This document shows positions 6,138-9,984 of a stretch of 45,385 nt of DNA, piece by piece; position 1 is the first letter of the stretch, and each line of letters starts with the position of its first letter. This DNA is from Armatimonadota bacterium (GTDB lineage Bacteria; Armatimonadota; JAAZEB01), in NCBI GenBank assembly GCA_012512505.1, contig JAAZEB010000156.1, positions 1-45,385 on the forward strand, given 5' to 3'. A program made the translations under genes and the position numbers. Below the pieces are notes generated by a model that was given only the letters and a program-made list of their open reading frames with translations, ran no database searches and was not told the origin of the DNA.

Positions 6138-6186
6138 GGTTCTGTGCCAGGCCTTAACCTAATGGCAATTGCTGCCGAAGAGGGAG

Positions 6187-6639
6187 ATGGAGGGTTGGCA
6201 GAGAGCCATGGCAGCCACACACGGCAAACGATGGCGGCGGCAGCGCCGGAGGGGCGGATACACGCTGATTGAGGTCCTCATGGCGATCAGTGTGATCGCC
6301 GTTGGGCTGCTGGGCATCTTCCAGGTACTGAGTACCACCCTCGGCACCAACATCGACGCGCGCAACCGGACGTGCGCCACGCGCTTTGCCCAGCAGGAGC
6401 TGGAAGCGGTGCGCAACACTCCCTTCAGTGCCCTCAGCAGTCAGGCTGCGCGCAAGAGCTCGGAACTCACCGCGGGGCTGGGAGGCAGCGCCGAGTGGGA
6501 TCTGCAGGTAACTCCCCTAAGCGACACGCTGAAGGGCGTCACCGTGGTGGTGCGCTGGATGCACCAGGGCCAGCCGCAGCAGGTCGCGCTCAGCACTCTC
6601 GCCCACAGCGCCGGTATTGCCAGCATCCGGAACCAATGA
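6187..6639 (+). CDS. Type IV pilus modification protein PilV-like pseudopilin
   Basis: A 151-residue minor pseudopilin. A basic leader ends in Gly24, followed by YTLIE; cleavage by prepilin peptidase after that Gly would expose Tyr, with the conserved Glu at position +5, and the hydrophobic helix VLMAISVIAVGLLGIFQVL follows. The rest has the short beta-rich layout of PilV/GspI proteins, including a QQELEAVRNTPF segment typical of the first helix. The ATG at 6187 has AGAGGGAG just upstream; ATG 6208 is a shorter alternative and a TTG lies upstream. It is first of three same-strand pseudopilin genes, with 54 bp to the next. The protein would sit in the inner membrane and then in a pilus or pseudopilus tip complex. 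Confidence 0.82.
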   Translation: MEGWQRAMAATHGKRWRRQRRRGGYTLIEVLMAISVIAVGLLGIFQVLSTTLGTNIDARNRTCATRFAQQELEAVRNTPFSALSSQAARKSSELTAGLGGSAEWDLQVTPLSDTLKGVTVVVRWMHQGQPQQVALSTLAHSAGIASIRNQ

Positions 6640-6693
6640 GGATGCGCCGGCCCCGGCTTTATCGGGCGGGCCTGGCCGGCAGGGAGACACACG

Positions 6694-7599
6694 ATGGCAC
6701 CCAGACCGCGCCTCGCCTCGCGCGGCTACACGTTGACCGAACTCACCGTGGCCGTGGCGCTCTCCATCGCGGCCGCGGCCATCATCACCGAGGTGCTGAT
6801 CGTCACCACCCGCACCTCGCAGCAGGCCTCCGCCCAGGCAGACACCCAGGGCCGCGCGCGCATGGCGCTGATGGCCTGGGAACAGCAGTTGCGCGACGGC
6901 TGGGCCGTGCTCACCCACTACACCCTCCAGGGATCGCCCTACACCACCTACACCACCCAGGTGACCGCGAACGAGCAGACGATCGTCGCTGCCCTCCCCG
7001 CGGTGGACAGCAACGGGGTGCCCTGTGCCTGGCGCGGCACCAACGTGGTGTACGACTGCGTGATCTGGCAGGCACTGCGCGACGCGGATGGACTCTGGAA
7101 TGTCTCCCGGCTCACCCTGACCAACGCGTTTCAGATGCCGGACAAATACTTCTCTCGCGCGCGGCCCCGCCACCCCGAGGTGTGCATCAACCTCGACGCC
7201 GTGCCGCCGGAACGCTTCTTCAGCCTTCTGTGGGGCGCGCCCTACACCGTGCCGACCATGGGGCGCACCCAGGAGTCGACGCCAGTACCGATCATCAGCG
7301 GTGCCTCGCTGTTCGCCGTGGAGCTGCATGACGACAACCACCTCCTGGCACCCGACCACTCGCTTTCGCCGCCGGTGCTCTCGCCACCGGCAGTGAACCC
7401 ACCCGGCGACCTGCCGGTGTGGACCGACGCGGCCGGCCAACGGACAGCCACTTGCGTCACCGTCACCAACGTCTCCGTGGTCCGGGTTGCCCTGCAGTTC
7501 GTCGAAGGCGCGCCGGCACTGCGGCCCGGCCATGGCGAAGTGGCGCAATCGGACACCCAGTGGGCGACAATCCGGCTGAGGAATAAGCAAACCTGGTAA
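6694..7599 (+). CDS. PilW/GspJ-like prepilin-type protein
   Basis: A 301-residue prepilin-like protein. The leader MAPRPRLASRG is followed by YTLTELTVAVALSIAAAAII, giving a class III cleavage site after Gly11 and Glu at +5. The first helix continues with QADTQGRARMALMAWEQQLRDG, as in PilW/GspJ minor pilins. The remainder is a soluble domain with no motif I recognise and a Pro-rich stretch around residues 225-245. The ATG has GGGAG nine bases upstream. Second gene of the pseudopilin cluster, with a 28-bp gap to the next. Likely part of the tip or priming complex of a type IV pilus or type II secretion-like system; the assembly machinery is not in this window. Confidence 0.78.
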   Translation: MAPRPRLASRGYTLTELTVAVALSIAAAAIITEVLIVTTRTSQQASAQADTQGRARMALMAWEQQLRDGWAVLTHYTLQGSPYTTYTTQVTANEQTIVAALPAVDSNGVPCAWRGTNVVYDCVIWQALRDADGLWNVSRLTLTNAFQMPDKYFSRARPRHPEVCINLDAVPPERFFSLLWGAPYTVPTMGRTQESTPVPIISGASLFAVELHDDNHLLAPDHSLSPPVLSPPAVNPPGDLPVWTDAAGQRTATCVTVTNVSVVRVALQFVEGAPALRPGHGEVAQSDTQWATIRLRNKQTW

Positions 7600-7627
7600 T
7601 GCCCGGGCGATAGCGGGAGGGGGAGAG

Positions 7628-8950
7628 ATGCGACGGCCCGCCATCCGAAAAGGACGCGAGCGCGGCATGGCCCTGGTGATGGCCATCGTCATTGCTTTAG
7701 TTTGCCTGGTGATCGTTGCCGGCTTGATGCAATACGTGATCAGCGAGTACCGGGCCACCCACCTGGACTGGCGGCGTGTTCAGGCGCTCTACTGCGCCGA
7801 GGCTGGAGTTGAGGCCGCTGTCGAGGCCCTGAAAAGCAACCCGACGCTCACCACCATCAGCGAGACAACCCTGGAATCGAGCCTCCCGGGAGCAACCGGC
7901 AGCTACGAAGTGAGCGTCACGCCGGTGCAGAGCGCCGGGGTGGATGATCCGCTGGGGGCCAAACAGATCACCGCGACCGGCTATGTGCCCTCGAAGGCCG
8001 AAGTGGCGGCCGGGCGGGGAGTTGACCGACGGGTGGTGGTCATCTACGGGCGAAGTACCTGGGACTTCGGCTTCGACGCGGTGCGTGCCCGCCAGGGGGT
8101 GGAGTACGGCTCCAACGACAACCTGACCGTCGTGGTGGATAGCAACTACAACATCGTCAACGATCCCTCCGTGGATGCCAGCATCCGGGTGACGGGGGAG
8201 GGTGCCACCATCGGCTCGGTCTACAGTACCGCGGCCAACAAAGCGCACGTCGCTGGCACTGTCTCCGCTCCGGGCACCGTCGACGTAAACCCGTCGCGCA
8301 CCCAGGGGGTCTTCACCGGCCCCGACCAGCACGTGCCAAACGCCTTTCCCGACGCGGCAACGCTGGGCTACGATGCCGCGGGCAACCTGGTGTGGCCGCC
8401 GGTGGGCGATACCTGGGCCGCGAACTACTACCAGGAGGCGCTCGCCGGAGGCACCATCTACTCCGCCAGCGGCACGATCGTCGGGCCGAAGTACATCGAG
8501 TTAGGGGGGAGCGGCACCCTGAGCGGCGTCACCTTGCGCGGCCCCGGCACGATCTTCGTCCACGGCAACATGGGAGACAACGTCACCAACGGCGCTCCGC
8601 CCGCCACGCTAGTGGTCTCCGGCAACTTCACCACGACCGGCAACACCTTCTATCGCTACAACCCCGCCCCGGGCACCGAGGAGGCGGAGCCGGCGCTGAT
8701 CCTGTTTGGAGAGACGGCGGAGATCAAGGGCAACTCCACCTGGTACCTGAACGGCCCGCTGTACGCCCTCAACCCCAACGCCCAGGTGCTGATCAACGAC
8801 TCGGCCATCACCTGCTTCGGGGCGCTGGTCTCCAACGGCACGGTGAAGTTCAAGTCGAGCAAGGGGGCCCTAGGCTTCCCGCAGATGCTGAAGAGCAAGC
8901 GCTTCACCCTGCGCGGCCTACCGATGGTTCTCTCTTACGCCGCGCAGTGA
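7628..8950 (+). CDS. PilX-like pilus assembly protein with large C-terminal domain
   Basis: A 440-residue protein. A basic start is followed by RGMALVMAIVIALVCLVIVAG, a single membrane helix, then QALYCAEAGVEAAVEAL, the hallmark of PilX N-terminal regions in which an AEAG motif follows the helix. The remaining 350 residues are Gly/Asn/Thr-rich and repetitive in beta-strand character (for example GTLSGVTLRGPGTIFVHG), suggesting a right-handed beta-helix or similar extracellular domain, much larger than classical PilX. GGAGGGGGAG precedes the ATG. Last gene of the pilV-pilW-pilX-like trio, facing the TPR gene tail to tail with 30 bp between them. The large domain may be adhesive or may be the displayed tip; this is inference. 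Confidence 0.75.
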   Translation: MRRPAIRKGRERGMALVMAIVIALVCLVIVAGLMQYVISEYRATHLDWRRVQALYCAEAGVEAAVEALKSNPTLTTISETTLESSLPGATGSYEVSVTPVQSAGVDDPLGAKQITATGYVPSKAEVAAGRGVDRRVVVIYGRSTWDFGFDAVRARQGVEYGSNDNLTVVVDSNYNIVNDPSVDASIRVTGEGATIGSVYSTAANKAHVAGTVSAPGTVDVNPSRTQGVFTGPDQHVPNAFPDAATLGYDAAGNLVWPPVGDTWAANYYQEALAGGTIYSASGTIVGPKYIELGGSGTLSGVTLRGPGTIFVHGNMGDNVTNGAPPATLVVSGNFTTTGNTFYRYNPAPGTEEAEPALILFGETAEIKGNSTWYLNGPLYALNPNAQVLINDSAITCFGALVSNGTVKFKSSKGALGFPQMLKSKRFTLRGLPMVLSYAAQ

Positions 8951-8980: not shown

Positions 8981-9898
8981 CTACTCCTCGCGGATTTCGC
9001 CTTCCTGGTCGATGGCCCAGAGGGTGCCGTCGGGGAGGGTGGCGCGCACCGTGTAGCTCTCCGCCTCGGTGGCGCCCTCGCTGATCACGGCGTCGCGGCA
9101 ATCGGGCAGTGGCAGGCCAGAGGCGGCGCCCGCGTCGATCCACTGCAGCGCCTCTAGCTCCGCCAGCGTGGCGTAGCGGCCCTGCTCGGATCGGTAGCGC
9201 TGCTGGGCTGCGGCGACGCGGTGCAGGAAGGTGGCGACCTCGGGCGGGCACGGCTCTGCTGGCGGCTCTTGCGTCGTGGCGATCTCCGGCGGCGATGGTG
9301 CTGCCCCAGCTACCGCTGGCGCGGTCTCCGCGGGAGCGCGCGGGGCCACCCTCAGCGCGTGCAGTTGGCCAAACGCCAGCAGCAACAGTACCACCAGGAC
9401 CGTCCCCATGCTGCCCAACACGAAGAGCAGGCGCCGTGGCTCGTAGGCGGGGAGGCTGCCCGGGGCGGTGGACGGCGGCAGGTGGAGCGCCAGCACGGCA
9501 CGGTCTTCGGGGCGCGGCAGTAGCTCTAGCGTGGCCCGGGCCTCACTGCACTCGGGATCGCTCCGGAGGGCGGCCTCCAGCATCGCGCGCGCCTCGTCGT
9601 GTTGCTGCCGGCGGAACAGAAGTTGGCCCAGGGCGCAGAGCGCCGCCGGGTCTTCCGGCCGCAGCGCGAGCGCCTGCCGCAGGCTGGCCTCTGCCCGCTC
9701 AGGGTTGCCGCACGCCGCGTGGGCGCGCCCCAGGTGATAATGGGCCGCGAAGTTGTCCGGCTGCAGCGTCGCCGCCAGGCTCAACAGCGGGATCGCCTCC
9801 CCGGCACGCCCCTCTTCCAGTGCCTTCAGCGCCAGCGCCAGGCTGTTGCTGCCCCCGGATCCAGCGCGCTCTTCCACCCGTTCTCTCCACCCGATCAC
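8981..9898 (-). CDS. TPR membrane protein with pilin-like C-terminal domain
   Basis: A 305-residue protein starting at GTG. Residues about 20-135 are three to four tetratricopeptide repeats (LQPDNFAAHYHLGRAHAACG, LRPEDPAALCALGQLLF). A transmembrane helix follows near residues 150-175 (LLFVLGSMGTVLVVLLLLAF), then a Pro/Ala linker. The last 85 residues read like the soluble part of a type IV pilin or GspG: AAAQQRYRSEQGRYATLAEL, a YTVRATL strand and a terminal IDQEGEIRE. This places a cytosolic TPR module and a periplasmic pilin-like module on opposite membrane faces. The gene faces the pseudopilin cluster and lies 86 bp downstream of the MEMO-family gene, perhaps in one transcript. I know of no named family for the whole architecture. 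Confidence 0.65.
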   Translation of the reverse strand: MIGWRERVEERAGSGGSNSLALALKALEEGRAGEAIPLLSLAATLQPDNFAAHYHLGRAHAACGNPERAEASLRQALALRPEDPAALCALGQLLFRRQQHDEARAMLEAALRSDPECSEARATLELLPRPEDRAVLALHLPPSTAPGSLPAYEPRRLLFVLGSMGTVLVVLLLLAFGQLHALRVAPRAPAETAPAVAGAAPSPPEIATTQEPPAEPCPPEVATFLHRVAAAQQRYRSEQGRYATLAELEALQWIDAGAASGLPLPDCRDAVISEGATEAESYTVRATLPDGTLWAIDQEGEIREE

Positions 9899-9984
9899 TC
9901 GCCCGGAGGGGGGGCGAGCGCGGCCGCCACCCCTGATCTGCTATTCGGCAGGTCGGCTGCCGCCATTGAGTGGCCGCCTGCCGG

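Follow-up and report, generated by a model that had tools for sequence, protein, structure and literature searches.

Organization of the locus

The window studied here is a stretch of 45,385 nucleotides from an Armatimonadota bacterium. One gene on its minus strand encodes a protein in which a TPR region, a single membrane helix, a Pro/Ala-rich linker and a pilin-like head follow one another (Table 1), hereafter the TPR-head protein. Residues about 18-127 match several Pfam TPR models, and TPR is the sole Pfam family above its cut-off. The hydropathy peak of 2.7 at residues 157-175 corresponds to one membrane helix, and the AlphaFold2 model, built from a three-sequence alignment, consists of a confident TPR superhelix, a helix at residues 154-183, disorder at residues 184-212 and a confident C-terminal domain. 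Among the three orthologues the TPR region is the best conserved part (55-61% identity), the head shares 31-38% identity and the linker 13-35% with gaps. By inspection, there is no N-terminal signal sequence before the TPR region, and the charges flanking the membrane helix are near balance with a slight N-in bias. The missing signal peptide and the kinship of the head suggest that the N-terminus is likely inside and the head in the periplasm. An ORF on the opposite strand, at 9109-9936(+), was rejected as a high-GC artefact because the conserved homologues and the families belong to the minus-strand product.

The matches of the TPR-head protein to "TPR pilotin" and "MamA" were dismissed as generic TPR similarity, being far under the cut-offs (TIGR02521, 42 bits vs a cut-off of 154; Tgl, 37 vs 225). 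The protein has neither the lipobox signal peptide nor the full-length match that define the PilF/PilW/Tgl TPR pilotin lipoproteins, and no PilO (PF04350) match was found in it by Pfam.

The gene lies tail to tail with a cassette of pilV/pilW/pilX-like genes at 6169-8950(+), 30 bp apart. In the PilX/GspK-like protein, a short N-terminal match is followed by a long Gly/Thr/Val-rich, repeat-like C-terminal region, which could be a beta-solenoid passenger. It was also observed that the G000 genome (5.7 Mb) contains 52 prepilin N_methyl motif matches and hence unusually many prepilin-like proteins.

Table 1. Coordinates of the TPR-head gene, its domains, the neighboring cassette and the PilO-head genes of the same family
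Feature	Position	Strand	Evidence or context
TPR - membrane helix - pilin-head gene	8981..9898	(-)	ORF, 305 aa, GTG start; full-length orthologues G001:C158, G002:C446
TPR region, residues 18-135	9494..9847	(-)	Pfam TPR models; predicted helical repeats, pLDDT 94-98
Single membrane helix, residues 154-180	9359..9439	(-)	hydropathy; predicted helix 154-183
Pro/Ala-rich linker, residues 181-214	9257..9358	(-)	pLDDT <50 at 184-212; poorly conserved
Detached pilin head, residues 215-305, alpha1C and four-stranded sheet	8984..9256	(-)	fold and profile evidence
Prepilin, PilV/GspI-like	6169..6639	(+)	N_methyl above cut-off; TIGR02523 E 7.6e-10 and GspI E 7e-7, both under curated cut-offs
Prepilin, PilW/GspJ position	6694..7599	(+)	motif GYTLTE; N_methyl under cut-off; weak family matches
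PilX/GspK-like protein, 440 aa	7628..8950	(+)	GspK E 1.4e-6 and PilX_N E 0.005, both under cut-off
PilO with C-terminal pilin head	L074:13475-14416 (G000:C45)		type IV pilus operon
PilO with C-terminal pilin head	L075:10334-11212 (G001:C199)		type IV pilus operon
PilO with C-terminal pilin head	L111:11986-12960 (G002:C235)	(-)	type IV pilus operon

The C-terminal domain is a type IV pilin head

Foldseek with the full-length model gave, among the matches listed, TPR-type proteins only, and the head was therefore modelled and searched separately. On its own (residues about 213-305) it was modelled at pLDDT 92.3 and pTM 0.82; an alpha1C helix (219-239) precedes a short helix, which is followed by four strands. 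Searched against the PDB, the head alone has three confident matches, all of which are pilins, namely Neisseria meningitidis PilV (5v23), Pseudomonas aeruginosa PilE (4noa) and Thermus thermophilus PilA4 (6xxd), at probability 1.00, TM-score 0.63-0.69 and E 0.005-0.007; all further matches have a probability of at most 0.47. At the sequence level, Pfam ComP_DUS (PF16732) is the sole recurrent match of the head, under its cut-off. When the heads of the three orthologues are combined into a profile, true pilins of the same genome are matched (E 3e-6 and 1e-4). Compared at the profile level with five prepilins from its Armatimonadota family, the head scores 49.4; shuffling the columns 100 times yields 10.9 +/- 2.4, and reversing the profile yields 12.4. 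The head aligns in register with the family pilins from about mature pilin residue 35, past the membrane part of alpha1. Against the PDB, sequence profile A2 returned noise only, and with profile A10 the major pilin PilA (8tj2) ranks first and in register at a non-significant E of 0.46. By fold and by profile, this domain is a genuine type IV pilin head.

The N-terminal features of a prepilin are missing. The prepilin motif (G-F/Y-T-x-x-E) is absent from the TPR-head protein (P0001) and from P0005, its single regex match in P0006 is located near the C-terminus, and Pfam found no N_methyl match in the TPR-head protein. A hydrophobic alpha1-N continuous with alpha1-C is absent as well, as helices 154-183 and 219-239 of the model are split by the disordered linker. 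Lacking both the motif and alpha1-N, the TPR-head protein should be unable to enter a filament. With the motif absent and the alignment starting at residue 35, the protein has kept the head and is missing the requirements for processing and polymerization.

These results agree well with the first-pass annotation, which had described TPR repeats, one membrane helix and a domain reading like the soluble half of a type IV pilin, with no prepilin signal, tail to tail with pilV/pilW/pilX-like genes: Pfam, hydropathy, AlphaFold2 and Foldseek all support the architecture, the motif and N_methyl searches support the missing signal, and the structure comparison that it proposed for residues 215-305 returned a pilin head. 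Its description of the orientation as unlike a pilin does not hold, since unassembled pilins share the likely topology, N-in and head-out. The TPR-head protein is thus alike to type IV pilins and minor pilins (PilA4, PilV, PilE; ComP_DUS PF16732) in head fold, in-register homology and probable topology. What sets it apart is the missing prepilin leader, in place of which there is a TPR region of 150 residues, and the linker between membrane helix and alpha1C; unlike the pilins, it is expected to be neither cleaved nor polymerized.

Distribution of the gene and of the pseudopilin cassette

Full-length relatives of the TPR-head protein are found in only two other genomes, each from a further genus of this Armatimonadota family (G001, 44% identity; G002, 43% identity), and the gene has been retained vertically in these three genera. 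It is absent in full length from the 58 other Armatimonadota genomes searched; the scan of the genome collection used two short peptide patterns, which distant relatives could escape. Full-length relatives of the PilX-like protein are likewise confined to the same family among 41 Armatimonadota genomes (38 outside the family).

G001 conserves the whole neighborhood, including a GH130-like gene, the three pseudopilins, the TPR-head gene, Memo, an M1 peptidase and recA. In G002, the TPR-head gene is located on a contig of 11.5 kb with no pilus genes within 4-6 kb, and the pilV/W/X-like cassette is at the end of another contig. Thus, the expectation that homologues co-occur with the three pseudopilin genes is borne out, as gene and cassette are both found in 3 of 3 family genomes; linkage is limited to two of these. 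Each of the three assemblies is a fragmented MAG (G002 is 80% complete), and the head alignments are shallow. The three genomes are a single clade, so that their co-occurrence is without independent replicates, and in view of this and of the separate contig in G002, contact with the cassette's own pseudopilins is no more than a possibility.

A pilin head fused to PilO

Among the new findings, the most telling is a PilO that ends in a pilin head, present in each of the three family genomes. The head profile matched PilO in two of them, and a PilO-head profile recovered the third (Table 1). In the two proteins tested (L074 and L075), PF04350 is above its cut-off (E 1e-7 and 5e-7) and is followed by the head. 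The G001 operon reads pilT-like, pilM region, pilO, GspC/PilP-like, secretin and pilB, with a prepilin downstream. A PilO-head search of 101 Armatimonadota genomes gave matches in 53, and PilO and head were both covered in the three family genomes only. The head is absent from 26 PilO proteins of other Armatimonadota families, which have short or disordered tails.

The contact between PilMNO and pilins is known (PMC6325625). The PilO-head fusion joins two partners that are thought to touch, and it is therefore the strongest hint that these heads serve the pilus platform of the family. Given this fusion in close relatives, the detached pilin heads of the family are probably docking or sensing parts for pili.

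Detached pilin heads in other architectures

A 14-sequence head profile searched against 291 Armatimonadota genomes detects essentially this family only; outside it, a single CBM9-like protein and the prepilins of a second family are matched. Among the matches of this profile, L123 and L127 carry prepilin motifs. Beside true pilins, four architectures are found in the three family genomes, TPR-TM-head (3/3), PilO-head (3/3), TM-head-TPR (2/3) and short TM-head (1/3). The order is reversed in L076:8415-9437 (G000:C175) and L112:2109-3119 (G002:C32), where TPR repeats come after the head; their membrane helix runs directly into a pilin-like alpha1 and head, and the prepilin motif is absent. In a tree each architecture forms its own clade (ultrafast bootstrap 95% for TPR-TM, 99% for PilO and 85% for head-TPR), and the branching among the clades is poorly resolved. 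The tree is compatible with capture before the genera split, and equally with one or several captures.

The head profile had no match in five non-Armatimonadota genomes. Among 99 genomes of Acidobacteriota, the phylum of a Terriglobia MAG, it matches true pilins and many non-pilins. One of them, L140 (G361:C30), is a Ser/Thr kinase followed by a Pro-rich segment, a single membrane helix, a Pro-rich linker and a pilin head, an arrangement resembling that of a receptor kinase. Other carriers are TPR (L142), HEAT (L146), DUF3352-like (L158) and CBM9-like (L164) proteins, and short lipoprotein-like proteins (L141, L147 and L161). In L152/L163 (G332:C64), one ORF of ~630 aa has two profile matches and apparently three successive head units. 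CBM9-like proteins of Armatimonadota (L061, L063, L064, L065 and L124) and Acidobacteriota (L164) have a C-terminal domain related to the pilin head; it matches the 14-head profile at a profile-profile probability of 95% and has no match to a pilin-only profile. L060, L059 and L062 have a GspG-like tail. On inspection of their sequences, L156 and L066 were set aside as false or irrelevant matches.

Detached pilin heads are a recurrent module. In the open-licence literature we found no paper on a pilin-like domain with TPR, on DUF2950 with a pilin, or on a pilin domain with a kinase or sensor, and nothing relevant on PilO domain fusions.

Possible roles of the TPR-head protein

We give about even chances to the explanation that the TPR-head protein is an inner-membrane adaptor or sensor whose captured pilin head would contact pilins or the PilNO platform. 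As a single-pass inner-membrane protein, it would keep its TPR in the cytosol and, by way of a flexible tether, expose the head to the periplasm. Most likely, the head would mimic an unassembled pilin subunit and dock reversibly on pilin-binding surfaces, either the periplasmic platform of PilN/PilO or a membrane-resident pilin or pseudopilin. The TPR may hold or recruit a cytosolic partner, e.g., the motor, PilM or a regulator. Such a protein would escape processing by the prepilin peptidase and packing into the filament, and might work alongside the type IV pilus or pseudopilus machine as its accessory, as an adaptor or as a sensor of occupancy, in whichever direction its presumed effect runs. 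The pilin fold, the in-register homology with pilins, the adjacency to the cassette in two genomes and the PilO-head fusion all argue for this explanation. The location of the G002 gene away from pilus genes, the co-occurrence within one clade and the Acidobacteriota heads with no evident link to pili argue against it. Furthermore, the TPR region is more conserved than the head, which suggests that the partner of the head may be variable or unimportant.

The recurrence of detached heads makes the domain itself less novel and strengthens the main rival, in which the head is a module of general use for extracytoplasmic sensing or binding, on a receptor-like scaffold unrelated to pili that lies next to the cassette by coincidence. 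The first-pass proposal of an assembly or sensor protein that imitates a pilin is affected in the same way: the PilO-head fusion in the same three genomes speaks for it, and the Acidobacteriota heads on the Ser/Thr kinase L140 and on HEAT, CBM9-like and lipoprotein-like proteins speak against it. These heads, together with those on Acidobacteriota TPR proteins, the related domain on Armatimonadota CBM9-like proteins and the unlinked gene in G002, are what a general module would predict. However, PilO itself bears the same kind of head in the pilus operon of this family, and the TPR-head gene adjoins the pseudopilin cassette in two genera. We consider the general module rather unlikely. A pilin fold with no N-terminal polymerization helix, in the topology of an unassembled pilin, would also suit a decoy or brake that competes with pilins for the platform or caps the base of the pseudopilus, limiting assembly on a TPR-bound signal, and the known PilMNO-pilin contact (PMC6325625) is in line with this. 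Yet so long a flexible linker would be needless for a brake, and the sequence offers no distinction between inhibition and help; we regard this role as quite improbable. Slighter still is the chance that the head is a duplicated pilin tail which was joined by accident to a membrane protein with TPR repeats and contributes little function of its own. The lower identity of the head (31-38%) than of the TPR (55-61%) could be explained in this way, but the core fold elements are all kept in three genera next to a linker of only 13-35% identity with gaps, and such heads have been retained in several separate architectures.

It is a doubtful but broader suggestion that detached heads are pilin-mimic receptor domains, placed on PilO and on proteins with cytosolic outputs (TPR; the Ser/Thr kinase in Acidobacteriota), where they would read or template the state of membrane pilins, so that pilus assembly would be tied directly to signalling in the cytosol. 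Should the kinase and TPR versions be pilin readers, they would represent a new coupling of pilus state to signalling; if they are not, the pilin head has escaped into general extracytoplasmic use. To our knowledge, how PilN/PilO hold pilin subunits and hand them over is still poorly defined, and the lineage with PilO-head and TPR-head proteins offers a natural covalent model of pilin contact with PilN/PilO. More than the single gene, the PilO-head fusion merits attention, as do the receptors of the kinase-head and TPR-head types.

Comparison with proteins of similar plan

The polar organizers FimV/HubP have a periplasmic LysM, one membrane region and a cytoplasmic TPR and are linked to pilus function (PMC12918733). 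They resemble the TPR-head protein in that a single membrane region separates a binding domain in the periplasm from a TPR in the cytoplasm, and differ from it in having LysM instead of the pilin head and a C-terminal rather than N-terminal TPR. Pfam found no LysM match in the TPR-head protein, the one point at which homology was compared, and the FimV-type proteins are an analogue in plan rather than a relative. The PilO-head protein of the same three genomes likewise has a single membrane helix and a periplasmic C-terminal pilin head; unlike the TPR-head protein, it has the PilO domain between helix and head and no TPR. The kinase L140 shares the plan of a cytosolic module, Pro-rich segment, membrane helix, Pro-rich linker and pilin head, and differs in its kinase in place of the TPR and in its origin from Acidobacteriota.
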